Below, piece after piece: positions 4,299 through 25,426 of a stretch of 53,003 bases of DNA. The notes below the pieces were generated by a model, which was not told the origin of the DNA, did no database searches, and saw nothing but the letters and a program-made list of their open reading frames with translations. This stretch comes from Candidatus Chloroploca mongolica (lineage in GTDB: Bacteria > Chloroflexota > Chloroflexia > Chloroflexales > Chloroflexaceae). A program made the position numbers and the translations under genes. The stretch's first letter is position 1. Each line of letters opens with the position of its first letter. Location: NCBI RefSeq assembly GCF_004762035.2, contig NZ_SIJK02000013.1, positions 1 through 53,003 on the forward strand, read 5' to 3'.

Positions 4299-5636
4299 AT
4301 GAGTGATGATCTCCGTCAAACTTTGCTTGAGCGTGCCGAAGAAGAGCGTGTTGCCTTTGTGAATCTTCAGTTTACTGATGTGCTGGGGATGGTGAAGACG
4401 GTCACTATTCCGGTCAGTGAGCTTGAAGATGCCCTTGGTCATGGGGTCTGGTTTGATGGTTCGTCACTCGAAGGGTTTGCCCGAATGGTCGAGAGCGATA
4501 TGTATCTCGTACCTGACCCTGCGACGTATGCGTTGATTCCGTGGGATAAACACGAGGGCCTGACAACCGCACGGTTGATCTGCAATATTTATACACCCGA
4601 TCGCAAACCGTTTGCGGGCGATCCGCGGCATGTCCTGACGAATGCACTGAACCAGGCTGCTGCGATGGGCTACGGTTTCAATGTTGCACCTGAACTCGAG
4701 TTTTTCCTTTTTAAGAGCAATGCCGACGGTCTGCCGACACCGATGGTGCATGATCAGGCGAGTTATTTTGATCTTTCGACCGATCAGGCGACGTTGATTC
4801 GGCGTCAGATGGTGCGTGCGCTGAGCCAGCTTGGCATTACCGCCGAGGCTGCCCATCACGAGGTGGCGGCAGGGCAGCACGAGATCGACCTGCGGTATGA
4901 CGGGGCGCTGCGGGCGGCTGACCATACAATTACGGCACGGGTCGCGCTCAAAGCCATTGCCCAACTCAATGGGCTCTATGCAACTTTTATGCCCAAGCCG
5001 TTGGCCGGCGTCAATGGCAATGGTATGCACGTGCATCAGAGTCTGGTTGATCTGGTGACCGGGCAGAATATCTTTAATGATCCGGATGATCCCTACGGCC
5101 TTTCGCCAGTAGCGCACCATTTTATTGCCGGCTTGCTGGCTCACGCCCGTGGTATGTGCGCGATCCTGGCCCCTCTGGTCAATTCGTATAAACGCCTGGT
5201 ACCGGGGTTCGAGGCACCGATCTATATCTCATGGGGGCGTACCAATCGATCCGCGCTGGTGCGCGTGCCGCGCATTACCACCGGGCGCCACCAGAGCACA
5301 CGGGTCGAATTGCGTTGTCCTGATCCGGCCTGTAATCCCTACCTGGCGTACGCCGTCATGCTGGTCGCGGGGCTTGACGGTATTAAACGCAAGCTCTCGT
5401 TGCGTGAAGCCTCGGAAGAGGATCTCTTTCACGTTGATCCACGGGCTCGGGGCCTGGCGACGCTGCCGTCGTCGCTCGGCGCGGCGCTGGATGCCCTGCG
5501 CGAAGATGAAGTCATTGTGCAGGCGCTTGGCCCGAATGCGTTTGAGCGTTTTGTTGATGCCAAACAGCAAGAGTGGGAGAGTTATCGCCAGCATGTTTCA
5601 GCGTGGGAGATCCAGCGCTACCTGGCGATTTTTTAG
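4299..5636 (+). CDS. glnA: Glutamine synthetase, type I
   Basis: 445 residues from ATG 4299, preceded by GGGGAGG ten bases upstream. Forms glutamine from glutamate, ammonia and ATP. Visible family motifs: WFDGSSLEGFAR followed by ESDMYLVPDP in the beta-grasp part, ELEFFLF (metal ligands), NGNGMHVHQSL, NSYKRLVPGFEAP and SWGRTNRSALVRVP, ending in a WEIQRYLAIF tail. The length fits the short GSI-alpha type. The place of the adenylylation tyrosine (LYDLP in the enterobacterial enzyme) reads LATLP here, so control by adenylylation is not expected. A bidirectional terminator follows. The genome may contain a second, primary enzyme; I cannot tell. Confidence 0.93.
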   Translation: MSDDLRQTLLERAEEERVAFVNLQFTDVLGMVKTVTIPVSELEDALGHGVWFDGSSLEGFARMVESDMYLVPDPATYALIPWDKHEGLTTARLICNIYTPDRKPFAGDPRHVLTNALNQAAAMGYGFNVAPELEFFLFKSNADGLPTPMVHDQASYFDLSTDQATLIRRQMVRALSQLGITAEAAHHEVAAGQHEIDLRYDGALRAADHTITARVALKAIAQLNGLYATFMPKPLAGVNGNGMHVHQSLVDLVTGQNIFNDPDDPYGLSPVAHHFIAGLLAHARGMCAILAPLVNSYKRLVPGFEAPIYISWGRTNRSALVRVPRITTGRHQSTRVELRCPDPACNPYLAYAVMLVAGLDGIKRKLSLREASEEDLFHVDPRARGLATLPSSLGAALDALREDEVIVQALGPNAFERFVDAKQQEWESYRQHVSAWEIQRYLAIF

Positions 5637-5656
5637 GGTGGAGCAGGCTGAAAGAG

Positions 5657-5698
5657 ACAAAAAAGCGGGGCTGTGTAAACACAGTCCCGCTTTTTTGT
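5657..5698. terminator. Bidirectional terminator between glnA and tRNA-fMet
   Basis: A stem of about 19 pairs containing AAAAAAGCGGG on one side and CCCGCTTTTTT on the other, loop TAAA, one mismatch. Because the A and T runs form the base of the stem it works in both directions, ending glnA from the left and the tRNA from the right. Confidence 0.9.
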
Positions 5699-5705
5699 CT
5701 ACGAT

Positions 5706-5780
5706 TGGTAGCGGCGGCAGGATTCGAACCTGCGACCTTCGGGTTATGAGCCCGACGAGCTGCCACTGCTCCACGCCGCG
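5706..5780 (-). tRNA. Initiator tRNA-fMet (CAT)
   Basis: 75-base cloverleaf with encoded CCA. Anticodon loop CTCATAA gives CAU. Initiator marks: three consecutive G-C pairs in the anticodon stem (GGG before, CCC after the loop) and an unpaired first position, here C1 opposite U72, where the usual bacterial initiator has C1 opposite A72. T arm GCAGG-TTCGAAT-CCTGC is normal. It has its own consensus promoter and a strong terminator. Confidence 0.93.
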
Positions 5781-5794
5781 TTAGTCACCATTAA

Positions 5795-5823
5795 ATTATA
5801 ACAACGTGGAGAGGTCATGTCAA
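5795..5823 (-). promoter_or_regulatory. Consensus promoter of tRNA-fMet
   Basis: Minus-strand TTGACA (5818-5823), 17-base spacer, TATAAT (5795-5800). The -35 box overlaps the first codons of the divergent amidohydrolase gene at 5817, so strong tRNA transcription may interfere with that gene. Confidence 0.85.
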
Positions 5824-7175
5824 GCACTTCGCTCTTGATTAAACATGCTGATCGGCTGGTGACGATGGATGCTGCCAGGACTGAGCTTGCCGATGGGGCG
5901 TTGTATGCGGTTGATGGGGTGATTACCCATGTCGGGCCGACTGCTTTGCTGCCTCAGGAAGCCGATCAGATCATTGATGCACGTGGCATGCTGGTCATGC
6001 CCGGCCTGGTCAATACCCACCATCACTTTTGTCAGACGCTGACGCGCTGTATGGCGCAGGATCGTGATCTCTTTGGCTGGCTCACGACGCTCTATCCGCT
6101 CTGGGCCAGGATGACCGTCGAGGCGGTGCAGGTGGCAACCAGGACGGCCCTGGCCGAGTTGTTGCTGACGGGTTGCACGACGACGAGCGATCATACCTAT
6201 CTGTGGCCCAACGGGGCGCGTCTCGATGATCAGATCGAAGTGGCTGTCGCGATGGGGGTGCGTTTTCATGCGGCACGCGGAAGCATGTCGGTCGGGCAGA
6301 GCAAAGGCGGGTTGCCGCCTGACCAGGTGGTTGAAGATGAGGCTCATATTCTCGCTGATTCGCAGCGCCTCATCGAGCAGTACCACGATCCCGCACCGGG
6401 GGCGATGCTTCGCATTGTGCTGGCTCCCTGTTCGCCGTTTAGTGTTTCCCCCGCTTTGATGCGCGAGAGTCTGGCACTGGCGCGGAGCTACGGGGTACAC
6501 GTTCATACGCATCTTGCCGAGACGCTTGACGAAGAGCGGTATTGTCTGGCTCAGTTCGGGCGTCGTCCGGTCGAGCTCTGTGAAGATCTAGGCTGGGTGG
6601 GGAAGGATGTTTGGCACGCGCACATGGTGCATCCTTCGGCAGCGGAAATCGAGCGTCTAGGGCGCACGCATACCGGGGTCGCCCATTGTCCGTGTTCAAA
6701 TATGCGGCTTGCCTCGGGCATTGCGCCCATCGGGGCGCTGCGGCGTGCGGGGGCGCGTGTCGGGTTGGGCGTAGACGGTTCGGCGTCGAATGATGGTTCG
6801 CATATGCTCGGCGAGGCTCGCCAGGCCTTGCTCTTGCAACGTGTGCAGGGCGATCCGGCGGCCATGAGTGCGCGTGAAGCGCTGTGGCTGGCGACGCGAG
6901 GCGGGGCCGAGGTACTCGGGCGTGACGACATTGGGCAACTGGCCCCAGGGTTGTGTGCCGATGTGATTGGCTATCGGCTTGATCAACTCGCGTTCGCCGG
7001 GGGTGCGGTGCATGATCCTGTCGCGGCCCTCGTCTTTTGCACGCCGCCGCCGGTTGACCTCAGCATCATCAATGGGCGTGTCCGCGTCGCTGAGGGCCAC
7101 ATCCTCGGTCTCGATCTCCCCGTCCAGATCGAACGGCACAACGCCATTGCCCGCGAACTTGCCAACCAGATGTGA
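5817..7175 (+). CDS. Amidohydrolase, 8-oxoguanine deaminase-like
   Basis: 452 residues; ATG 5817 has GGAGAGG close upstream. Cytoplasmic metal-dependent hydrolase of the ATZ/TRZ (cytosine deaminase-like) group. Seen: N-terminal beta domain, the metal motif VNTHHHF near residue 65, TTSDHTYLWPNG, HVHTHLAETLDEERY near 225 with the third His and catalytic Glu, HAHMVHP, VAHCPCSNMRLASGIAPI near 285 and GVDGSASNDG near 320 with the last metal Asp. The HHHFCQTLTR and LF-WL-LYPLW segments match proteins annotated as 8-oxoguanine or hydroxyatrazine-type deaminases; the exact substrate cannot be fixed from sequence. Single gene, bounded by the tRNA and the convergent LuxR-type gene. Confidence 0.85.
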   Translation: MSSTSLLIKHADRLVTMDAARTELADGALYAVDGVITHVGPTALLPQEADQIIDARGMLVMPGLVNTHHHFCQTLTRCMAQDRDLFGWLTTLYPLWARMTVEAVQVATRTALAELLLTGCTTTSDHTYLWPNGARLDDQIEVAVAMGVRFHAARGSMSVGQSKGGLPPDQVVEDEAHILADSQRLIEQYHDPAPGAMLRIVLAPCSPFSVSPALMRESLALARSYGVHVHTHLAETLDEERYCLAQFGRRPVELCEDLGWVGKDVWHAHMVHPSAAEIERLGRTHTGVAHCPCSNMRLASGIAPIGALRRAGARVGLGVDGSASNDGSHMLGEARQALLLQRVQGDPAAMSAREALWLATRGGAEVLGRDDIGQLAPGLCADVIGYRLDQLAFAGGAVHDPVAALVFCTPPPVDLSIINGRVRVAEGHILGLDLPVQIERHNAIARELANQM

Positions 7176-7804: not shown

Positions 7805-8703
7805 GGGGTGGCCTGGGCGGCTTGCGCCGCTAGACGGATCGCGGTGGTGAGTGGTTGCCCGCCGCGCAAGCCTTCGATGCGCACAGTATCACCGGGTGTT
7901 CGCACCTGCAATGCCGCAAGCAGGGCTTCGGTATTGGGCAGGGGTTGGTCATCAAAGCGTTGGAGCAGATCGCCAACCTGCAAGCCACCAGCGGCAGCTG
8001 GGCCGTTGTTCGCTACGGCTGCCACCAGCAAGCCCTGGATTTGATTATTTTCGCCACCAACGGCCGGTTGCACCGCCAGGCCGAGAAAGACCGGACGGCG
8101 GGGCAGACTCGCGGCCCAGGCCTGGGCGACATGGCTGGGGATGGCGACCGCCAGATCGCCCCCAAAGATCATCGCATTGATGCCAACGACCTCGCCGCGT
8201 GCGTTGAGCAGTGGCCCACCTGAATTGCCTGGGGCCAGACGAACATCAGACCGAATGTAACTGGCAGCTTGCTCGCCTTGTTCAGCCGGAATTTCACCAA
8301 CTGCACTGACAATGCCTGCGGTTACGATGCCCCGCATGCCCCACGGATTGCCGACCGCAAAGACGAGTTCCCCAACCCGCAGGTGCGTTGAGTCACCGAC
8401 AACGACGGGCGGCAACAGACTCTCTTCAACGGCAAGCAGCGCGAGATCAAGCCGTGGATTGCCTGCGATCAGACTCGCCCGATAGCGGCGATCATCCGCC
8501 GCTACAAGCTCAACCCGCTCGCCAACGCCGGCAATGACATGAAAATTGGTCATCACCGTCTTGCTATCACGCCAGACCACACCTGAACCGGCCCCACGCC
8601 GACGTCCTTGCACCTGCACCACACTGGCGCGGGCCTGTGCGGCAAGCGTGGCAGCTTCTATGCCAATCAGCATTGCAGCTGAGTTTTGTTCAACAAGGGT
8701 CAT
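7801..8703 (-). CDS. Trypsin-like serine protease with PDZ domain (HtrA-like)
   Basis: 300 residues from ATG 8703 (AAAGGA nine bases upstream). Order: short N-terminal region without signal peptide or membrane anchor, a trypsin-like domain (about 25-200) with the catalytic His in TNFHVIAG, Asp in RLDLALLAV and Ser in APGNSGGPLLN, then one PDZ domain (about 205-295, LQVGDLLQRFDDQPL). All three catalytic residues are present. HtrA proteins are normally exported; absence of a signal suggests a cytoplasmic protein, unless the start is wrong. It is followed by the overlapping LuxR-type gene and preceded by a paralogous protease gene on the same strand. Confidence 0.9.
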   Translation of the reverse strand: MTLVEQNSAAMLIGIEAATLAAQARASVVQVQGRRRGAGSGVVWRDSKTVMTNFHVIAGVGERVELVAADDRRYRASLIAGNPRLDLALLAVEESLLPPVVVGDSTHLRVGELVFAVGNPWGMRGIVTAGIVSAVGEIPAEQGEQAASYIRSDVRLAPGNSGGPLLNARGEVVGINAMIFGGDLAVAIPSHVAQAWAASLPRRPVFLGLAVQPAVGGENNQIQGLLVAAVANNGPAAAGGLQVGDLLQRFDDQPLPNTEALLAALQVRTPGDTVRIEGLRGGQPLTTAIRLAAQAAQATP

Positions 8704-8772
8704 CTTTTTTTATCCTTTGCAACGAGCGCTGAGTTTTGTCGTCGGTCAAGGGAATTTTTGCTCTGCGCACAA

Positions 8773-8850
8773 TTTTGTCATGCTGAGCGCAGCGAAGCAT
8801 CTCTGCCGTCGGGAGGCCTGCGACCCTTCGCTTTGCCCAGGGCGACAAAA
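8773..8850. repeat. MITE-like element with terminal inverted repeats
   Basis: A 78-base segment bounded by TTTTGTC...GACAAAA. The left arm continues TGCTGAGCGCAGCGAAG and the right arm, read in reverse complement, gives a similar CCTGGGCAAAGCGAAG. This kind of GTCATnCTGAGCG element is scattered through many bacterial genomes. It lies between the two protease genes and carries no gene. Confidence 0.6.
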
Positions 8851-8893
8851 CCCGGAAAACTTTGTTCACCGACAAATGCGTCGTGTGCGTTTG

Positions 8894-9796
8894 TTAACTT
8901 CGCTGGCCCACCGTGACGAGGGCCGTAAAGAGTGAGCCTCCCCGCAAAACCTGTACCGGCACTTGCTTGCCAACCCGCTCACCGACCAGCAAGGCCTGCA
9001 ATTCGTCGGTGTCGGTAAGTGGATGTCCGTCAAAGGTGATCAAGACATCGCCGAGTAACAGGCCGCCCTGGGCCGCCGGGCTGCCTGGTTCGACGCGAAC
9101 AATGAGCAACCCCTGTGCCTGACTCTGTCCACCGCGCTGGCCTTCGGGCAACTCGACGGGTTGGCTACTAATGCCAAGAAAGCCGCGTTTGATATAGCCT
9201 GTTGCCCCAAGGGTTGTGGCAATCCGCCAGGACAGTGCGGCTGGAACACCAAGGGCGACCCCGTTGATCAACCCGGTGGTCAAGACTGCGGCCACCTTGC
9301 CTTCGGCATCAATCAAGGCTCCCCCGGAAAAGCCAGGATAGGGAATCGCATCAGTCTGGACATATTGCTCAAGCATCGCCCCGCGTCGCCCGCGCAAAGG
9401 GCCGCCGGTGGCACTGATAATCCCAAACGAGGCCATTGCACTGCTGCCAGGCCGCCCCACGGCGAGAATCAACTGCCCCACACGGGCCGGACTTTCAACA
9501 AACGTCGCCGGAGTTGTCCCGAGATTATCAATGCGCAGCAAGGCAAGATCACTCGCATGGTCACGCCCAGCCAGTTGGGCTGGCAGGATACGGCCATCAG
9601 GCGTTGCAATGGTCAGATCATCATCGCGTTCTAGCACATGGTCGGCCGTCAGCACCGTATCGTTTGTGACAACAATGCCGGTAGCCGGGCCGCGTGTACG
9701 CCCGCGTACCTGCACCAGACTCATTCCGATGCGTTCAACTGCATCCGCCATTTGGGTCGAAATCATTGCCAGGGCCGAAGCTTCATTTGTTTCCAT
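8894..9796 (-). CDS. Trypsin-like serine protease with PDZ domain, paralogue
   Basis: 300 residues, the same length and layout as the gene at 7801-8703. Catalytic His in LTADHVLERDD, Asp in ASDLALLRID, Ser in YPGFSGGALID; PDZ domain in the last 95 residues (LLLGDVLITFDGHPLTD). There is no signal peptide. The two proteins differ widely outside these motifs, so the duplication is old. The oxyanion-site sequence GFSGGA instead of GNSGGP is a tolerated variant. The upstream 190 bases before its neighbour hold a MITE-like repeat. Role: probable protein quality control or regulated proteolysis. Confidence 0.88.
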   Translation of the reverse strand: METNEASALAMISTQMADAVERIGMSLVQVRGRTRGPATGIVVTNDTVLTADHVLERDDDLTIATPDGRILPAQLAGRDHASDLALLRIDNLGTTPATFVESPARVGQLILAVGRPGSSAMASFGIISATGGPLRGRRGAMLEQYVQTDAIPYPGFSGGALIDAEGKVAAVLTTGLINGVALGVPAALSWRIATTLGATGYIKRGFLGISSQPVELPEGQRGGQSQAQGLLIVRVEPGSPAAQGGLLLGDVLITFDGHPLTDTDELQALLVGERVGKQVPVQVLRGGSLFTALVTVGQRS

Positions 9797-18012: not shown

Positions 18013-18089
18013 GGCCCCCGTTGATCGTAGTACGCACTGTAAACTACATTGCCCTCTTGGGCCTCCATGTAGCGGCAAGGAGCCCCCCT

Positions 18090-19370
18090 ATGCCCCCAAA
18101 GGCACAGTTCACACGCGAAGATGGGATCTATCATTCGTTTTGTGGCCTGGTCAGTGTTGGCTGGTTGTATCAGAAGATCAAGGATAGCTTCTTTCTCATT
18201 CTTGGTACCCATACCTGCGCCCATTTGCTCCAAAATACGATGGGCGTGATGATTTTTGCCCGCCCACGCTTCGCCATTTCATTGCTTGAAGAAGCTGATC
18301 TCTCTTCGGCTCAGCCTGCCATTGCTGACCAGATCGCCGAGATTACCCGTGAACACCACCCCTCCGTGATCTTCTTGCTCTCCTCCTGTACCCCCGAAGT
18401 GATGAAGGTTGAGTTTGAGGGCCTCGCGCAGTCGGTTAGTACCCCCGAGGTGCCGGTGCTCTTTGTGCCTGCTTCCGGCCTCGATTTTACCTTCTCCCAA
18501 AGCGAAGATTCGGTGTTGCAGGCGTTGATCCCGTTCTGTCCCCAGGCCCCGCCCGATGATAAACGGGTTGTCTTCCTCGGTTCGGTCAATGATGCGATTG
18601 CCGATGATTTTCTCTTTGAGGCCTCGCGTCTGGGTATTCCGGTCGCTGGTTTTCTGCCGGCCAATCATTTCCACGAACTGCCGCCGATTGGCCCAGGAAC
18701 AATCATTGCGCCCCTGCAACCCTTCCTTGCCAAAGTGGCGAATCAGTTGACGAATGATCGTGGCGCGACGGTGATGTCGTCGCTCTTTCCCTTTGGTCCC
18801 GATGGCTGCCGTGCGTTCTGGGAAGACCTCGCGGCTCACTTTGATCTGAAAGTTGATCTGAGTGAGCGTGAAGCGGCGTCCTGGGCGCGGATCAAAGAGC
18901 ATACCGATCTGCTCAAGGGTAAGAAGGTCTTTCTGTCCGCCGATACGCTGCTTGAATTGCCCCTGGCCCGCTTTATTCGTGCCGCTGGTGCCGAGGTGCT
19001 TGAGTGTTCGACCCCTTATATTAACCGCCGCTTCCACGCCCGCGAACTGGCCTTGCTCGATGGGGTGCGCCTTGTTGAACAGGCGAATTTCGAACGCCAG
19101 TTGCGCAGTATCGCCGAAGAACAGCCCGATCTCGTGATCTCCAATATTATTACCGCTAATCCACTCATTGGTCACGGCGTGGTCGCGAAATGGGGCACCG
19201 AGTTCATCTTTTCCCCTATTCACGGCTGGGCTGGCGTCAATACGCTCGTTGGCCTCTTTACCCGAGCCCTCCGCCGTCACGCCCGCCTTGACCCCCTTGG
19301 CAGTGATCCGGTCTGGATGGCTGGTGTGATGCCGGGTGCCCCTGAGATCATTCCGCTTACCCGCGGGTGA
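18090..19370 (+). CDS. bchN: Light-independent protochlorophyllide reductase subunit N
   Basis: 426 residues from ATG 18090, preceded by AAGGAG seven bases upstream. With BchB it forms the nitrogenase-like NB component that reduces ring D of protochlorophyllide in the dark, fed with electrons by BchL. Cluster ligands expected from this subunit are visible: Cys18 (YHSFCGL), Cys43 (GTHTCAHLL) and Cys100 ([15 protein letters not shown]). The C-terminal part shows [20 protein letters not shown]. It is first of the cluster; bchB begins 23 bases after its stop. The 69-base in-frame extension upstream lacks a ribosome site. Confidence 0.96.
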
Positions 19371-19393: not shown

Positions 19394-21094
19394 ATGCGAC
19401 TGGCTTATTGGATGTACGAAGGTACGGCCCATCACGGGGTCGGTCGGGTGATGAACTCGATGCGCAATACCCACGCCGTCTTTCATGCCCCGCAGGGTGA
19501 TGGGTATGTGAATACGATCTTTACGATGCTCGAACGGACGCCCGGGTTTCCGGCGATGACGACGAGTGTGGTGAGTGGTACCGATCTCGCCCGTGGGACG
19601 CTTCGCCTTCCCGAGACGCTGCGGCAGGTCGAGGCGACCCGCCATCCCGATCTGATTGTGGTGGTTGCCTCGTGCTCGACGATTTTGCTGCAAGAAAATC
19701 TGGAGATTGCCGCGCATCAGTCTGGTCTCGCTTGCGAGGTGATGGTCTATGATGCGAATCCCTATCGGATGCAAGAGACCGCCGCCGCCGAGGGGCTCTT
19801 TACTGCGTTGGTGAAGAAGTATGCAACCCCTCAACCCCTGACCTCGCTGCCGAGTGTGAATATCCTTGGACCTTCGTCGCTCGGCTTTCACGCCCGCCAC
19901 GATCTCATCAGTCTCCGTCGCATCCTCAAAACGCTCGGGGTGGCCGTCAATGTGGTGGCCCCTTGGGGGGCGAGTGTTGATGATCTCCGTCGCTTGCCGG
20001 CGGCCTGGCTCACCATTGCGCCCTACCGCGAGCTCGGTCGGCTCGCCGCTGAACACCTCGAGGCGCAGTTTGGTACGGCTGCGCTCTATGATGCGCCGAT
20101 TGGGGTGCAGCCAACGCTGCGCTGGCTCGATGCTTTGCTCGAGACCCTCAATACGGTTGGCTCGCGGCTTGCTGTGCCGCCATCGCCGCTCAAGTTGCCC
20201 CCACTGACCGAGTTTTCGCTTGATGGCATGTCGGCACCTTCGAATGTGCCCTGGTTTGCCCGTACGGCCGATATGGAGAGCTTTACGGGTAAGAAGGCGT
20301 TTGTCTTTGGCGATGCAACCCATACCGTCGGTGTCACCAAGTTTCTTGCCGATGAATTGGGTATGCCAATTGCGGGTGCCGGTACCTATCTCGTGAAGGA
20401 GGCCGACTGGGTGCGGTCGCAACTCCAGGGTTATGTCAGCGATGCGGATTTCCTCGCCACCGATGAGTTTCAACAGGTCGCTGACCGGATCGGTCAGTTG
20501 CGCCCTGAACTTGTCTGTGGGACGCAGATGGAACGGCATACCGGTCGTCGGTACGATCTGAATGTGATGGTTATTTCGTCGCCAACACATATCGAAAATC
20601 ACTTGCTTGCCTATCGCCCATTCCTCGGTTTTGATGGGGCCGATGTGATTGCCGATGAGGTCTCAACAACCTGTACACTCGGCATGGAGAAGCATCTCAT
20701 CGATATGTTTGGTGATGCCGGGCTGGAACTTGTTGAACCCGCCGCCGCTGAGTCGGCTGAACCAGTGCTTGCGAGCAATGGCAATGCCGCTGTGGCACCA
20801 GTTGCTGTGGTCGCTGAGCTGGTCAAGCCAACAAACGGCCATGCGCCTGAAGAGCAATCTTCCAACGGCAACGGATCCGCTCTACCCACCGGTGCTGCGC
20901 CATCTGGTCAGACCGCTGCGGTGCCCGCTGTGAATCCGGTCTGGACGGCTGATGGCGAAGCGATGCTCAAGAAGATCCCCTTCTTTGTTCGTGGCCGCGC
21001 ACGGGGCAATATCGAGAAGTATGCCCGTGAACATGGAATCGCGACGATTACCGCCGAGGTGCTGCTCGCTGCCAAAGAGCATCTCGGTGCCTAG
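19394..21094 (+). CDS. bchB: Light-independent protochlorophyllide reductase subunit B
   Basis: 566 residues from ATG 19394. Partner of BchN in the NB complex. The unusual aspartate cluster ligand known from this subunit is at Asp36 (APQGDGY). Other marks: VASCSTILLQENL, TVGVTKFLADELG and VISSPTHIENH. The C-terminal 50 residues form the PCP_red helical domain (MLKKIPFFVRGRARGNIEKYA). Between the catalytic part and that domain lies a low-complexity Ala/Asn/Pro linker of about 60 residues (about 452-512), longer than in typical homologues. The next gene starts 12 bases after the stop. Confidence 0.96.
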   Translation: MRLAYWMYEGTAHHGVGRVMNSMRNTHAVFHAPQGDGYVNTIFTMLERTPGFPAMTTSVVSGTDLARGTLRLPETLRQVEATRHPDLIVVVASCSTILLQENLEIAAHQSGLACEVMVYDANPYRMQETAAAEGLFTALVKKYATPQPLTSLPSVNILGPSSLGFHARHDLISLRRILKTLGVAVNVVAPWGASVDDLRRLPAAWLTIAPYRELGRLAAEHLEAQFGTAALYDAPIGVQPTLRWLDALLETLNTVGSRLAVPPSPLKLPPLTEFSLDGMSAPSNVPWFARTADMESFTGKKAFVFGDATHTVGVTKFLADELGMPIAGAGTYLVKEADWVRSQLQGYVSDADFLATDEFQQVADRIGQLRPELVCGTQMERHTGRRYDLNVMVISSPTHIENHLLAYRPFLGFDGADVIADEVSTTCTLGMEKHLIDMFGDAGLELVEPAAAESAEPVLASNGNAAVAPVAVVAELVKPTNGHAPEEQSSNGNGSALPTGAAPSGQTAAVPAVNPVWTADGEAMLKKIPFFVRGRARGNIEKYAREHGIATITAEVLLAAKEHLGA

Positions 21095-21106: not shown

Positions 21107-22387
21107 ATGACCATGACAGCCCGACCGCTCCACGAGATTACCCTGCTTTCGCAGGCCGAGCGGTTCAAAGGTCGCCCGAAGCTGTGTAGTGATTGCGGGG
21201 TCTGTGGCGGTGAGTTGCGCCCGAAGATGGCCGCTTCGTGTGTCTTTGTCAACAATAAGCACGAGGTGTTTGAACGTCAGTTCCACGGGCGCAACCGTCG
21301 CGATGGCGATGAGTTGCTCTTTGGGGTACATCGGGCCATCCATATCGCCCGGATGCGCACGCCCAATCTCGAAGCGCAGTGGAGTGGCATTATTACGTCG
21401 CTTGCCGCTTTGCTGCTCGAGCGTGGTCTGGTCGAGGGCGTCATTACGACGAAAGCCGCCCCCGGGACCCGCTGGGCACCGCTGCCCTTCTTGGCGCGTA
21501 CGCCGGAAGAGGTGCGGGCGAGCGCCGGCAATAAGCCCTGCCTCTCGCCGAATCTTGAGGTGCTCGATGAGGTGCGGGCCGCTGGCCTCAAGCGCCTTGC
21601 TTTCATTGGCACCGGTTGCCAGGTTCATGCGCTGCGCGCGCTTGAGCCGGAACTTGGCCTCGAGCAGTTGTATGTGATCGGGTTGCCCTGTACCGATAAT
21701 ACGGCCTATCCCGATCTCCAGCGCTTCTTGAAGGTTGCTTCGAAGTCGCCCGAGACGATTGTGCATCACGAGTTTATGCAGGATTTTCGCGTCTGGATGC
21801 GCCACGAAGATGGTCATACCGAGACGATCAATTTTGTTGATCTTGATGTCAGCGCCCTCGGCGGTGAGCGCGGCGTCTTCCCGGCAGCCTGCCTCAGTTG
21901 TTTCGATTATCAGAATGGCCTGGCCGATCTCACGGTGGGCTATCTCGGAGCCCCCTTGCCCCCCGATGAACGCTGGCAGTGGATGTTTGTCCGTAACGAG
22001 CGCGGCGAAGAGCTCTTTGAGTTGATCCGTCCCTCGCTTGAACTCGGTCAACGTACCGAGGGTGGCGACCGTCGGGCGGGTATTCAGGCCTATGTGGGGA
22101 TGCTGCGCAAGCCCCGTAAACGGCCCCCGTTGCCGGTGCGCAAATTTGTCGCCTGGCTCCAGCGCTCCAAAGGCCCCAAAGGGGTTGAGTTTGCCCGCAG
22201 TGTGATCGAACAGAAACTGCTGCGCAATCTCGTCTATGTCCGTGACCAGTTCCCCCGCCACGAACAGCGTATTGTGCCTGGGTATGTCTATCGTGCCCTC
22301 GCCTATACCGCCGATGTCTATGCCCGTGAGTTCGGTCGCCCCCTCGCATATGCCCCCGCCGAGGCAGCGACCAGAAGCGAGGCTTGA
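21107..22387 (+). CDS. bciB: Divinyl (proto)chlorophyllide 8-vinyl reductase, BciB-type
   Basis: 426 residues from ATG 21107 (AGGTGA four bases upstream; ATG 21113 is also possible). The protein belongs to the F420-hydrogenase beta-subunit family: iron-sulfur cysteines CSDCGVC at 27-33, further CxxC at ACLSCFDYQ, and flavin-region motifs FIGTGCQVHALRAL and GLPCTDN. Two related enzymes share this fold, the ferredoxin-dependent 8-vinyl reductase BciB and the 7-hydroxymethyl chlorophyll a reductase. Position between bchB and bchL, in an organism without chlorophyll b, favours BciB. It would reduce the 8-vinyl group next to the ring D step. Confidence 0.85.
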   Translation: MTMTARPLHEITLLSQAERFKGRPKLCSDCGVCGGELRPKMAASCVFVNNKHEVFERQFHGRNRRDGDELLFGVHRAIHIARMRTPNLEAQWSGIITSLAALLLERGLVEGVITTKAAPGTRWAPLPFLARTPEEVRASAGNKPCLSPNLEVLDEVRAAGLKRLAFIGTGCQVHALRALEPELGLEQLYVIGLPCTDNTAYPDLQRFLKVASKSPETIVHHEFMQDFRVWMRHEDGHTETINFVDLDVSALGGERGVFPAACLSCFDYQNGLADLTVGYLGAPLPPDERWQWMFVRNERGEELFELIRPSLELGQRTEGGDRRAGIQAYVGMLRKPRKRPPLPVRKFVAWLQRSKGPKGVEFARSVIEQKLLRNLVYVRDQFPRHEQRIVPGYVYRALAYTADVYAREFGRPLAYAPAEAATRSEA

Positions 22388-22405: not shown

Positions 22406-23224
22406 ATGTCCCTGATTCTTGCTGTCTATGGCAAAGGCGGGATTGGCAAATCAACGACCAGTGCCAATCTCTCGGCGGCGATGGCCCTCAAAGGGGCGAA
22501 GGTGTTGCAGATTGGCTGTGACCCGAAACATGATAGTACCTTCCCCTTGACCGGCTTGCTCCAGCCTACCGTGATTGATGTGCTCGAAGAGGTTGATTTC
22601 CATATTGAGGATGTCGCCCGCGAGGATGTGATTCTGACCGGTTTTGCCGGTGTCGATACGCTCGAAGCGGGTGGCCCGCCTGCTGGCAGTGGCTGTGGCG
22701 GCTATGTGGTTGGCGAGACGGTGAAGTTGCTCAAAGAGTTTGGCCTCTATCATAAGTATGATGTGATTCTCTTTGATGTGCTTGGGGATGTGGTCTGTGG
22801 TGGCTTTTCGGCCCCGCTCAACTATGCCGATTATGGCATTATCATTGCATGCAATGATTTTGATAGCATCTTTGCCGCCAACCGCCTCTGTCTCGCCATC
22901 CAGCAGAAGAGTCAACGCCATAAAGTGAGGATGGCTGGCTTGATTGCGAATCGGGTCGATCCTGATTTTGGTGGAACTGGCCTCCTTGAGCAGTTTGTTG
23001 AGACCGTTGGTACCAAGATTATCGGGCGAGTTCCCTATCACGACCTGATCCGTCGCTCCCGCCTGGCAGGCAAGACCCTCTTTGATATGGAGGGTGAAGG
23101 CAAAGAGGATTGCCTCCGTCCCTTCAATGAAATGGCCGAATATCTCCTTGGTCAACCCGAATCGACGATCCCGAATCCAATGCACGACCGTGCGATCTTC
23201 GACGTGGTGGGTGGATGGAAGTAG
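22406..23224 (+). CDS. bchL: Light-independent protochlorophyllide reductase, iron protein L
   Basis: 272 residues from ATG 22406 with AAGGAGAG upstream. A NifH-like ATP-dependent reductase that passes electrons from ferredoxin to BchNB. Seen: P-loop [10 protein letters not shown] (8-17), [10 protein letters not shown] (switch I region), and the two cysteines that bridge the single 4Fe-4S cluster of the dimer, Cys97 (GSGCGGYV) and Cys131 ([10 protein letters not shown]). FDVLGDVV is the Walker B region. Length and motifs are normal. It closes the bchN-bchB-bciB-bchL set and is followed by a long hairpin. Confidence 0.97.
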
Positions 23225-23230
23225 ATTATG

Positions 23231-23283
23231 TTTTTTTCGAGCGAAGGATGCCTGCAAAGCTGGCATCCTTCGCTCAGAAAAAC
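23231..23283. terminator. Long hairpin after bchL with reversed T/A tracts
   Basis: Arms GAGCGAAGGATGCC and GGCATCCTTCGCTC around TGCAAAGCT. On the plus strand the T run comes before and the A run after the stem, so it is a classical intrinsic terminator only for leftward transcription; for bchL it could be an mRNA-stabilising or processing hairpin or an attenuator before the next gene. Confidence 0.7.
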
Positions 23284-23333: not shown

Positions 23334-24605
23334 GTGGATCCATCACGAAACTATGCGCTCGCTGGAGCTGCGCTCTTTAATCCGATGGCATCCGTCTACT
23401 GGCTTGATGTCGTACGTGGGCGCAAGCCCGGGGTTGGTCTTGCGCTTGTGAGTGCTGCTGGAGCCGCCTGTGCTGCCCTTGCCTCGCCGCGTGAGCAGCC
23501 GTTGCGTGCGGTTGGCACCGGCTTGCTGGCTGCCGCAGGTGCAGCGGTGACCGGCTTGGTGCTGCAGCGTTTTGTTACCTGGGTTGAGCAGCGCGATGGC
23601 CCACCTGCCCCACCCGATGCACGCGATCTGCTGGTTCCAGCCGCAGCAGTCTGTGGTGCCGTTGTTGGTGCCGTTGCCCTTGGGGGGCGTGCGCCGATTA
23701 CGTATGCGCCCTACAATGGCAAGCCTGGTCATTATCGCTGGATCTCTGAAGGACCGCATACCGCTGCCCGGATCACCGCCTGGAGCGGCTATCTCTTGCA
23801 TCAACTGGCTGTCTGGGGATGCATTTATGCTGCCCAACGCGCTCGCCCATCCTACGATAATGGGATGCGACCCCTCAACTGGACGGCGCTCGCCGTCAAT
23901 GCTGCTGGGGTCGGGTTGCACTATGCTCAGACGCGCCGGTATTACGATGGCCTCGCGGTCGATGTGCCCGAAGGTACCTCGCTTGGCTCGGCGGCCTTTA
24001 TGCTTATGCTGATTCTGGCGATGGAGACGCCCCGCCGCGGTTTGATCATGGGGCTGAAGCGTCCGGGCCTGCCACCTGAATTGGTTCGTTTTGTGCGACG
24101 TTACCACGGGTATATCTTTAGCTGGGCGACCGTCTATACCTTCTGGTACCATCCGATGGAGCCCCTGCCCGCGCATCTTGGTGGGCTCTACCATATGATG
24201 CTTCTCTTTGTGCAATCTTCCTTGCTCTATACCAATGCGCACCGTGACCCGCGCTGGACATTGGCGCTCGAGATGATGGTCTTGCCGCATGCTGTGATCA
24301 CAACCCTACAAAAAGGTAGTGGTTTCGAAGGCATGTTCACCTTCGGTTTTCTCGGGATGTTTGTATTGGCGCAGATGCACGGTCTCGGCTTGAGCAAAGA
24401 GGCTCGTATTGGTATCGGGTCGACGTATGCAGCCTCAGCCCTTGCCTGGTATGGTTTGCGCCGCGAAATGCATCGCTTGCCTGACATTCTGCGGGTGCCA
24501 ATCCTCGAATACGGCATTGTGAGCATCCTCGCCGGCTTGTCGCTGTTGATGCGGGCCTTGCGTCGCGGTACACAGCGCATTTCTGCCCCTGGCAGTGCTG
24601 TCTGA
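23334..24605 (+). CDS. Histidine-rich polytopic membrane protein downstream of bchL
   Basis: 423 residues from GTG 23334, chosen because AAAGG ends eight bases upstream; the frame is open further up but runs through the hairpin and bchL. Family not recognised. About nine hydrophobic segments: Ala/Gly-rich ones in the first 140 residues, then segments carrying conserved-looking His: WSGYLLHQLAVW, GLHYAQ, YHGYIFSWATVYTFWYHP, HLGGLYHMMLLF, TNAHRD, MVLPHAVI, LAQMHGLGL. Membrane histidines in such numbers can bind heme, chlorophyll or metal, but the usual cytochrome b or desaturase patterns are absent. Its place right after bchL suggests a role in pigment synthesis or photosystem assembly (inference). 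Confidence 0.8.
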   Translation: MDPSRNYALAGAALFNPMASVYWLDVVRGRKPGVGLALVSAAGAACAALASPREQPLRAVGTGLLAAAGAAVTGLVLQRFVTWVEQRDGPPAPPDARDLLVPAAAVCGAVVGAVALGGRAPITYAPYNGKPGHYRWISEGPHTAARITAWSGYLLHQLAVWGCIYAAQRARPSYDNGMRPLNWTALAVNAAGVGLHYAQTRRYYDGLAVDVPEGTSLGSAAFMLMLILAMETPRRGLIMGLKRPGLPPELVRFVRRYHGYIFSWATVYTFWYHPMEPLPAHLGGLYHMMLLFVQSSLLYTNAHRDPRWTLALEMMVLPHAVITTLQKGSGFEGMFTFGFLGMFVLAQMHGLGLSKEARIGIGSTYAASALAWYGLRREMHRLPDILRVPILEYGIVSILAGLSLLMRALRRGTQRISAPGSAV

Positions 24606-24616
24606 GTTGAAAGGTA

Positions 24617-25426
24617 TCACGCTTCGTGTACCTGCATCTTTGTGCAGAGATCGAGGGCCTGTTGTAGTTGTTCCAGGCTTTGTGCTAGCGCAAAGGTTAC
24701 TTCAGGCTCGGGCATGGCTTCGTTGTACAGGATGCTCGCTGCGTGCAAGAGACGTTCGTGGATCTTGTTGAGGGTGGCCTGAAGTTGGGTCAGGTCTTGT
24801 GCAAGACGTGGATCGATGGTGGGGCGTGTTTGTTGACGGTGTTGTTGCTCGCGCAGGCGCTCAAAGGTCTGGCGGAGCAAAGGCATCGCTGCCGCGAGGG
24901 TACGGCGGACAGAATGGTTTAAGGGTGGCTCACAGCCGAGCAAGAGAAGCCCGGGTGGGCCGTGACGTGTCGGTAAAATACCGGCAATATGGATGCTACC
25001 GTCCAGAGGCACTAGGCCCCCCGGTAGCACGGTAATGCCAACGAGTTGCATTGCGGCCTGCACGGCTGGCAAGGCATAGATGGCAACAACTTCGTCAGCG
25101 GTGGGGGCCGACATCCCGATGCTGAGTGGCACGATGTCAGGCATAAGCAGCAGACCACTCTTTGCCTGCGTACAGCGGGCAAAGGTTTCGAGTGTTACCT
25201 GCGCTGCTTCACTCAGTTCCTGGATTGATCCAAGTTGTAAGGCTAGATTGTAAAGCAACTCACTGTCAGGTTTCGCGTGAAAGGTCGTATCCAACGTTTG
25301 TGACCACAACTCTTGTGCTGGAGGCAATCTTATCCAGTATACCAAAAACTCGGGTTTGACGCACGACTCTGCCCTCGCTATAATGCCATGAATATCCTGA
25401 ATCGCAGGACGAGGAGTAAGTTTCAT
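24617..25426 (-). CDS. GAF-like domain protein, function unknown
   Basis: Up to 269 residues; the start is uncertain. The ATG at 25426 overlaps the start of the divergent dsbA-like gene and has no ribosome site, while no ATG or GTG follows until residue 94; a TTG start near residue 33-45 is more likely. The middle (about 65-205) reads like a GAF sensor domain (LSEAAQVTLETFARCTQAKSGLLLMP, LGCEPPLNHSVRRTLAAAMPLLRQ). The C-terminal third is a Gln-rich coiled-coil (TFERLREQQHRQQ). No output domain is present. It ends 12 bases from the convergent membrane-protein gene, with no terminator visible. Confidence 0.65.
   Translation of the reverse strand: MKLTPRPAIQDIHGIIARAESCVKPEFLVYWIRLPPAQELWSQTLDTTFHAKPDSELLYNLALQLGSIQELSEAAQVTLETFARCTQAKSGLLLMPDIVPLSIGMSAPTADEVVAIYALPAVQAAMQLVGITVLPGGLVPLDGSIHIAGILPTRHGPPGLLLLGCEPPLNHSVRRTLAAAMPLLRQTFERLREQQHRQQTRPTIDPRLAQDLTQLQATLNKIHERLLHAASILYNEAMPEPEVTFALAQSLEQLQQALDLCTKMQVHEA
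25357..25385 (+). promoter_or_regulatory. Promoter of the DsbA-like gene
   Basis: TTGACG (25357-25362), 17-base spacer, TATAAT (25380-25385). It lies inside the uncertain 5' end of the leftward GAF-like gene, which is another reason to think that gene starts further in. Confidence 0.8.

Follow-up and report, generated by a model that had tools for sequence, protein, structure and literature searches.

The gene and its surroundings

The window (the whole stretch of DNA analysed here, 53,003 nucleotides from Candidatus Chloroploca mongolica) carries on its forward strand bchN (positions 18021 to 19370; TIGR01279, 620.7 bits), bchB (19394 to 21094; NF002789, 860 bits), an FrhB/FdhB-type gene (21107 to 22387; PF04432 and PF04422) that we take to be bciB-like, and bchL, encoding the DPOR ATPase (22406 to 23224; TIGR01281, 456.8 bits); the matches of bchN, bchB and bchL lie above their cut-offs. 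Next in this order and on the same strand comes an intact open reading frame (23334 to 24605), which begins with a GTG codon 109 bp after the bchL stop and encodes a membrane protein of 423 amino acids. The position of the start codon is backed by an ATG at the equivalent site in two other Chloroploca genomes. Within Chloroploca the gene is under purifying selection (dN 0.019-0.022, dS 0.20-0.35, dN/dS about 0.06-0.10), and bchL is constrained more tightly still (dN 0-0.0016, dS 0.14-0.19).

An inverted repeat with 24-nt arms (23232 to 23282) separates bchL from the membrane protein gene, hence adjacency alone does not establish co-transcription. Inspected by eye, the same interval holds palindromes of different sequence in two other Chloroploca genomes (L025 and L026, the latter seemingly with several), so that these elements appear to turn over quickly there; in the intervals of L111 and L112 a palindrome was not evident by eye. 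Just beyond the membrane protein gene, on the opposite strand (24617 to 25426), lies a gene for a 269-aa protein with no Pfam or PADLOC match, which has relatives in the same place in L025, L026 and L111 (33% in L111).

A widespread family without a name

Relatives of the window protein are encoded by 240 of 254 pattern matches in a public genome set, and the best 80 of these 240 were kept, a selection that leans towards the peptides of the window. By database label they belong to Chloroflexota, Actinomycetota, Pseudomonadota, Deinococcota, Cyanobacteriota, Spirochaetota and Myxococcota, many of them being metagenome bins whose individual phylum names may be wrong. Two merged sets of gene calls, with identical copies removed, gave 90 distinct family proteins at 89 loci, ten of which are long forms that share the N-terminal extension of the window protein; a copy interrupted by a stop or an unread codon (L066) and a broken copy in L118 are not in this protein set. 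Our alignment of 77 sequences consists of the window protein and 76 of the 90, and the 14 omitted are near-copies and the fragments L119 and L073.

The earlier note on this DNA had described a protein of no recognised family, and this holds: the window protein has no significant match in Pfam, NCBIfam or PADLOC, and a profile of the 77 family members has none among PDB sequences. Just two single members of the 77 touch unrelated Pfam models (E 0.006), and among the 66 short forms two show similarity to a single NCBIfam model, labelled ‘hypothetical protein’ (best E 0.0008). The best Pfam name for the window protein, CPP1-like (PF11833), is that of a POR chaperone and thus linked to protochlorophyllide reduction, but the weak match covers only residues 6 to 81 and, with E 0.11 and 12.5 bits against a cut-off of 28.4, was treated as chance. 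A weak match to SLATT was dismissed as well. The fatty-acid oxygenase UfaO, grouped with DUF1365 in the portions of PMC7380195 available to us, was considered and dropped, as no family member matches the DUF1365 model. No Pfam match to the BCD/Blh carotene dioxygenases (PF15461) was found among the 77 members at E 0.01. In a partial literature survey, conducted by topic and not by sequence (Chloroploca bchL, UfaO, LitR/photolyase, Chloroflexus DPOR/bciB), we found no treatment of the family.

The AlphaFold model of the window protein (pLDDT 91.8, pTM 0.89) has 13 long helices, so that the ‘about nine’ membrane segments counted previously were an underestimate; one short form modelled alone reached a pLDDT of 93.5. 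Neither model had a Foldseek match in the PDB at E 0.001, nor did the long model have one in the viral BFVD set at the same threshold. With VIA the best Z was 5.4 for the long and 6.2 for the short model. The comparison of the short model to a cytochrome b561 with its four-helix di-haem core (Dcytb, 5zle; Z 5.4, rmsd 3.9, 137 aligned residues) is under the noise level of the tool and ranked beneath potassium channels. For predicted models such as these, a missing fold match is no proof of a new fold.

Cytochrome b561 and the Ni-hydrogenase b-type cytochromes resemble our family in having membrane helices with conserved histidines, and histidines at two depths would suit two haems. In contrast to cytochrome b561, our family has more helices, many more invariant polar residues and no sequence or profile similarity: none of the 77 members matches PF01292 in Pfam at E 0.01, and hhalign against the bacterial b561 family (13 of 20 fetched PF01292 loci, the other 7 being long, fused or doubtful ORFs) gave probabilities of 0.5-0.6%, compared with 0.1-0.5% for unrelated membrane controls from three families. 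NnrS is a haem- and copper-containing membrane protein which, like our family, is polytopic and about 400 residues long. No member matched it in Pfam (PF05940, 77 members), and its hhalign probability of 0.3-0.4%, obtained with untrimmed ORFs chosen by position and hydrophobicity at five fetched loci, was at the level of the unrelated controls.

Conserved histidines and membrane topology

The window protein had been called histidine-rich, with a dozen histidines concentrated in its second half. The count of 12 is correct, but 12 in 423 residues is no enrichment (P=0.23 at an assumed background of 2.2%), and 8 of 12 in the second half is no significant cluster (P=0.19); as statistics, both descriptions were therefore dropped. 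What distinguishes the family is the conservation of its histidines and not their abundance. In the family core (residues 130 to 405; 23721 to 24548), delimited by the alignment and the short-form model, six histidines are invariant in all 77 aligned members across the seven phyla: H196 (23919 to 23921), close to the outer end of helix 180-202; H258 (24105 to 24107), in the middle of helix 248-272; H273 (24150 to 24152), in the YTFWYHPM stretch on the outer side; H281 (24174 to 24176), at the outer end of helix 279-296; H303 (24240 to 24242), in a cytoplasmic loop; and H319 (24288 to 24290), in the outer part of helix 306-326. Together with the YTFWYHPM region these six, each present in 77/77, are the features that mark a protein as a member. 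Two further histidines are nearly or largely conserved, H156 (23799 to 23801) in the middle of helix 143-170 in 76/77 and H349 (24378 to 24380) at the cytoplasmic end of helix 332-350 in 60/77, with Tyr in 15. Other invariant polar residues are N182, Q199, R234, R235, Q294, E313 and Q347, and E231 is found in 76/77.

The loops 171-179, 236-247, 297-305 and 351-354 and the C-terminal tail are together richer in K+R than the opposite side in every one of the 77 proteins, and these K+R-rich loops are hence probably cytoplasmic. With this orientation H273 and H281 are predicted at the outer surface, H196 and H319 6-7 residues (about two turns) below the outer helix ends, H156 and H258 in mid-membrane, and H303 and H349 at the inner (cytoplasmic) surface, where depth means position along a predicted helix rather than a measured distance. 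In the models the six invariant histidines thus sit within or near predicted helix ends, towards both sides of the membrane. Among the ligands suggested earlier (a haem, a chlorophyll precursor or a metal), a haem or metal site is plausible from this arrangement, while membrane delivery of bacteriochlorophyll intermediates found no support.

The reading we favour, tentatively and at less than even confidence, is that the gene represents the phototroph-clade branch of an unnamed polytopic membrane family and encodes a transmembrane redox protein, possibly of a di-haem b-type. Histidines paired at matching depths would then hold two b-type haems across the membrane, which would connect the outer face with the quinone pool or the cytoplasm by electron transfer. 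The conserved polar residues along the core helices would also fit a rather unlikely alternative, a membrane enzyme (oxidoreductase or oxygenase) that would use a histidine-bound metal to modify lipids or isoprenoids (e.g. a carotenoid) under light stress, and in phototrophs a pigment-related lipid. In known di-iron membrane oxygenases, however, the histidines form a single cluster, and the predicted positions towards both membrane sides speak against such an enzyme.

Distribution and phototrophy

It had been proposed that the protein delivers bacteriochlorophyll intermediates to the membrane and, as a check, that it might be restricted to phototrophic Chloroflexota. In the class of the window genome we found the protein in 24 of 158 genomes, 13 with the long and 11 with the short form, and BchL in 53 (51 above the cut-off). 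All 13 long-form genomes are positive for BchL and for CsmA; of the 11 short-form genomes, 2 are positive for BchL. One short form of the class (G051, C1:487509-487991) has two in-frame stops and is apparently a decaying copy. In a sample of 400 Chloroflexota genomes (completeness >=85%; thresholds E 1e-20 for the protein and E 1e-80 for BchL), 32 carry the protein and 32 BchL; 11 carry both, all with the long form, which leaves 21 protein-positive genomes without BchL and 21 BchL-positive genomes without the protein. The family as a whole, with its members in other phyla, is not a phototrophy family, and the proposed restriction applies to the long-form clade only. Even there, 40 of 41 genomes of the window's taxonomic family are BchL-positive, so that the link of the clade to phototrophy is inseparable from kinship.

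Of the 53 genomes of the class with BchL, 40 lack the long form, some of them being incomplete; several genomes of the window's taxonomic family that lack the gene are at least 99% complete. The gene lies directly after bchL in 5 of the 13 carriers, namely the three Chloroploca genomes, G023 and G031 (three genera), and in G027, which lacks it, bchL is followed 365 bp on by a DsbA-like gene. In the eight carriers of one other genus (g4) the gene is not beside bchL, judged over 1.5 kb or up to the contig end in all eight and over longer flanks in six. These six have an amidohydrolase and an MFS gene on one flank, and five of them a pyridine-nucleotide-disulfide oxidoreductase on the other. Along single-contig genomes of g4 the distance to bchL is about 2.6 Mb (G006), 65 kb (G007) and 51 kb (G009). 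The position directly after bchL, given in the earlier note, is correct for the window, with its 109 bp and the intervening inverted repeat, and does not extend to most carriers. Phototrophy genes are described as scattered in C. aurantiacus (PMC9316378, in the parts covered), and we found no statement on the membrane gene in those parts of this proteome paper. At one g4 locus (L105:9236-10481, in G006) near-identical short ORFs are repeated directly downstream of the gene, probably a local repeat; none was seen at the five other g4 loci.

An accessory protein or subunit of DPOR would be expected wherever BchL is present and linked to bch genes. Both expectations failed: among BchL-positive genomes, 13 of 53 in the class have the long form and 11 of 32 in the sample of the phylum have any form, and bchL adjoins the gene in 5 of 13 carriers. 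Given its absence from 40 of 53 BchL-positive genomes and this limited adjacency, neither DPOR nor pigment synthesis seems to depend on the protein. The more specific proposal, that the long-form protein binds a bacteriochlorophyll intermediate or delivers it from or to DPOR, draws on the exclusive occurrence of the long form in BchL-positive genomes, on the adjacency to bchL in three genera and on one histidine exclusive to the clade. However, the same 40 genomes do without the long form, 8 of 13 carriers keep the gene away from bchL and the clade restriction is confounded with kinship, so that we regard it as quite unlikely. For the family at large, with 21 of 32 carriers lacking BchL, delivery is unsupported.

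The long-form clade

In the tree the 11 long forms of the alignment are split from the 66 short forms with a support of 100/100 and by a stem of 1.43 changes per column; a stem of this length suggests that the function of the long-form clade may differ from that of the rest of the family. The N-terminal extension (residues 1 to 95; 23334 to 23618) comprises three helices missing from the short forms. Strong matches to it are confined to the 13 long-form genomes of the 158, with weak matches (E 0.0017-0.0091) in six other genomes. Invariant columns among nine long forms number 40 of 95 in the extension and 131 of 276 in the core. If a column is counted as separating the forms when it is fixed in the 11 long forms and shows one residue in >=60 of the 66 short forms, only two core columns do so: H287 (24192 to 24194), with Tyr in 66/66 short forms, and T324, with Ala in 64/66. 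H287 is the single clade-exclusive histidine, present in 11/11 aligned long forms as well as in L009 and L010, two long forms outside the alignment.

If any member delivers bacteriochlorophyll intermediates, it would be one of this extended clade, with the change from Tyr to His and the added N-terminal helices as the place to look. A bolder and very unlikely reading would make the family a new membrane fold class of histidine-ligated redox proteins, whose phototroph form, with three added helices and Tyr287His at about the depth of H196 and H319, might bind a bacteriochlorophyll precursor or another tetrapyrrole, or feed electrons to the DPOR/BciB steps.

Gene neighbours and possible partners

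Neighbours were counted for the 90 proteins at 89 loci, including near-copies (eight Lentzea and one Prauserella). In 12 of the 90 a molybdenum hydroxylase large subunit (MoCoBD) lies <=1 kb from the gene, and its 2Fe-2S subunit is found <=1 kb away in 11 of these and at 2.2 kb in L067. At the nine Lentzea/Prauserella loci and in G028/G029 the two subunit genes begin next to the family gene and lie on the opposite strand. In L067 both are upstream on the same strand in an operon-like order, the aligned part of the large subunit ending 18 bp before the gene. Three regions of the tree have this context (Lentzea/Prauserella, L067 and G028/G029), although some forks between L067 and G028/G029 are modestly supported. 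A 2Fe-2S and Mo pair is found 7-10 kb off in L037, and a lone 2Fe-2S subunit at 4.4 kb in L055. Each of the 12 large subunits has a twin-arginine-like motif, which would place a Mo-hydroxylase partner outside. A MarR gene lies beyond the subunit pair at the nine actinomycete loci and directly adjoins the family gene in L039, L055, L093 and L095, none of which has the pair nearby. Elsewhere in their genomes G000, G007, G031 and G023 encode MoCoBD_2 family proteins; none was found in the Herpetosiphon-type short-form carrier G043.

The known cytochrome partners of periplasmic 2Fe-2S/Mo aldehyde dehydrogenases are cytochromes c. Our family shares with these systems the proximity to genes for 2Fe-2S and Mo subunits that have Tat-like motifs; it differs from such cytochromes in being polytopic and in having no family match. 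Compared with a lipid- or isoprenoid-modifying enzyme, the molybdenum hydroxylase neighbours suit electron transfer better.

A second context is one of light-response genes. A TIGR01777 gene (the representative scores above its cut-off) lies <=1 kb upstream on the same strand in 10/90, a CarH-like gene within 5 kb in 9/90 (the representative scores 146.8 bits, below the NCBIfam CarH cut-off of 400) and a photolyase within 5 kb in 7/90; at least one of the three is found within 5 kb in 19/90. An aldo/keto reductase is <=200 bp upstream on the same strand in 6/90 (L035, L040, L041, L044, L048 and L050), and at a few loci there is a flavin amine-oxidase-type neighbour which by eye resembles phytoene desaturase. 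A 152-aa neighbour that is SRPBCC-like by eye has no Pfam match. The TIGR01777, CarH-like, photolyase and reductase genes, with the few desaturase-like ones, would be in keeping with the enzyme for lipids or isoprenoids discussed above. In the parts of PMC6739363 and PMC9758184 accessible to us, LitR/CarH proteins are described as light sensors, and a LitR region of Pseudomonas is said to include phrB together with a short-chain dehydrogenase gene and others of unknown function; we found in these parts no experiment tying the family to light.

In four near-identical loci (L054, L060, L064 and L080) the gene is inside a peptide-type ABC transporter operon, with SBP_bac_5 at -2 and binding-protein-dependent permeases at +1 and +2, all on the strand of the gene, and an MFS gene lies <=1 kb away in eight other loci. 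Such neighbours, the conserved polar residues on 13 helices and the window protein's weak NCBIfam matches to CbiQ (E 0.014) and NikB (E 0.027) would fit a protein that transports or chaperones haem, a metal or some other small molecule and whose histidines are ligands or proton relays. We consider this unlikely, since the ABC context belongs to one lineage, with other ABC genes mostly several genes away, and the CbiQ and NikB matches are far below the cut-off.

The redox protein that we favour would agree with the six invariant histidines, the uniform topology, the Mo-hydroxylase neighbours with their Tat-like motifs and the light-related neighbours; the similarity to 5zle adds weak evidence. 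Against it stand the b561 profile comparison at control level, the invariant polar residues that also suit an enzyme or transporter, the four ABC-operon loci and the 59 of 90 proteins with neither the Mo-hydroxylase nor the light context. All long forms are among these 59, their neighbours being bchL or an amidohydrolase with, mostly, a disulfide-type oxidoreductase. From these data we infer the haem, electron transfer, the partner enzymes and the direction of electron flow. Several lineages would have as outer partner a molybdenum hydroxylase with 2Fe-2S subunit that is exported by Tat, while in others the gene would be part of a light-response set. Some filamentous anoxygenic phototrophs would have kept and modified the protein, and its position after bchL would reflect local gene order rather than a subunit of DPOR. 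A redox protein that handles electrons or deals with light stress is more likely than one that carries chlorophyll intermediates.

The Pfam, NCBIfam and PDB copies searched contain no name for a family that spans seven phylum names, keeps six histidines invariant and gave two confident models with no significant fold match. The Mo-hydroxylase and light-response neighbours in some lineages supply direct hypotheses on its function, and the clade-exclusive Tyr-to-His change in the phototrophs is a cheap point for experiment. At one locus (L088) we noted two diverged family copies about 2 kb apart, at 5388-6425 on the reverse and 8407-9384 on the forward strand.
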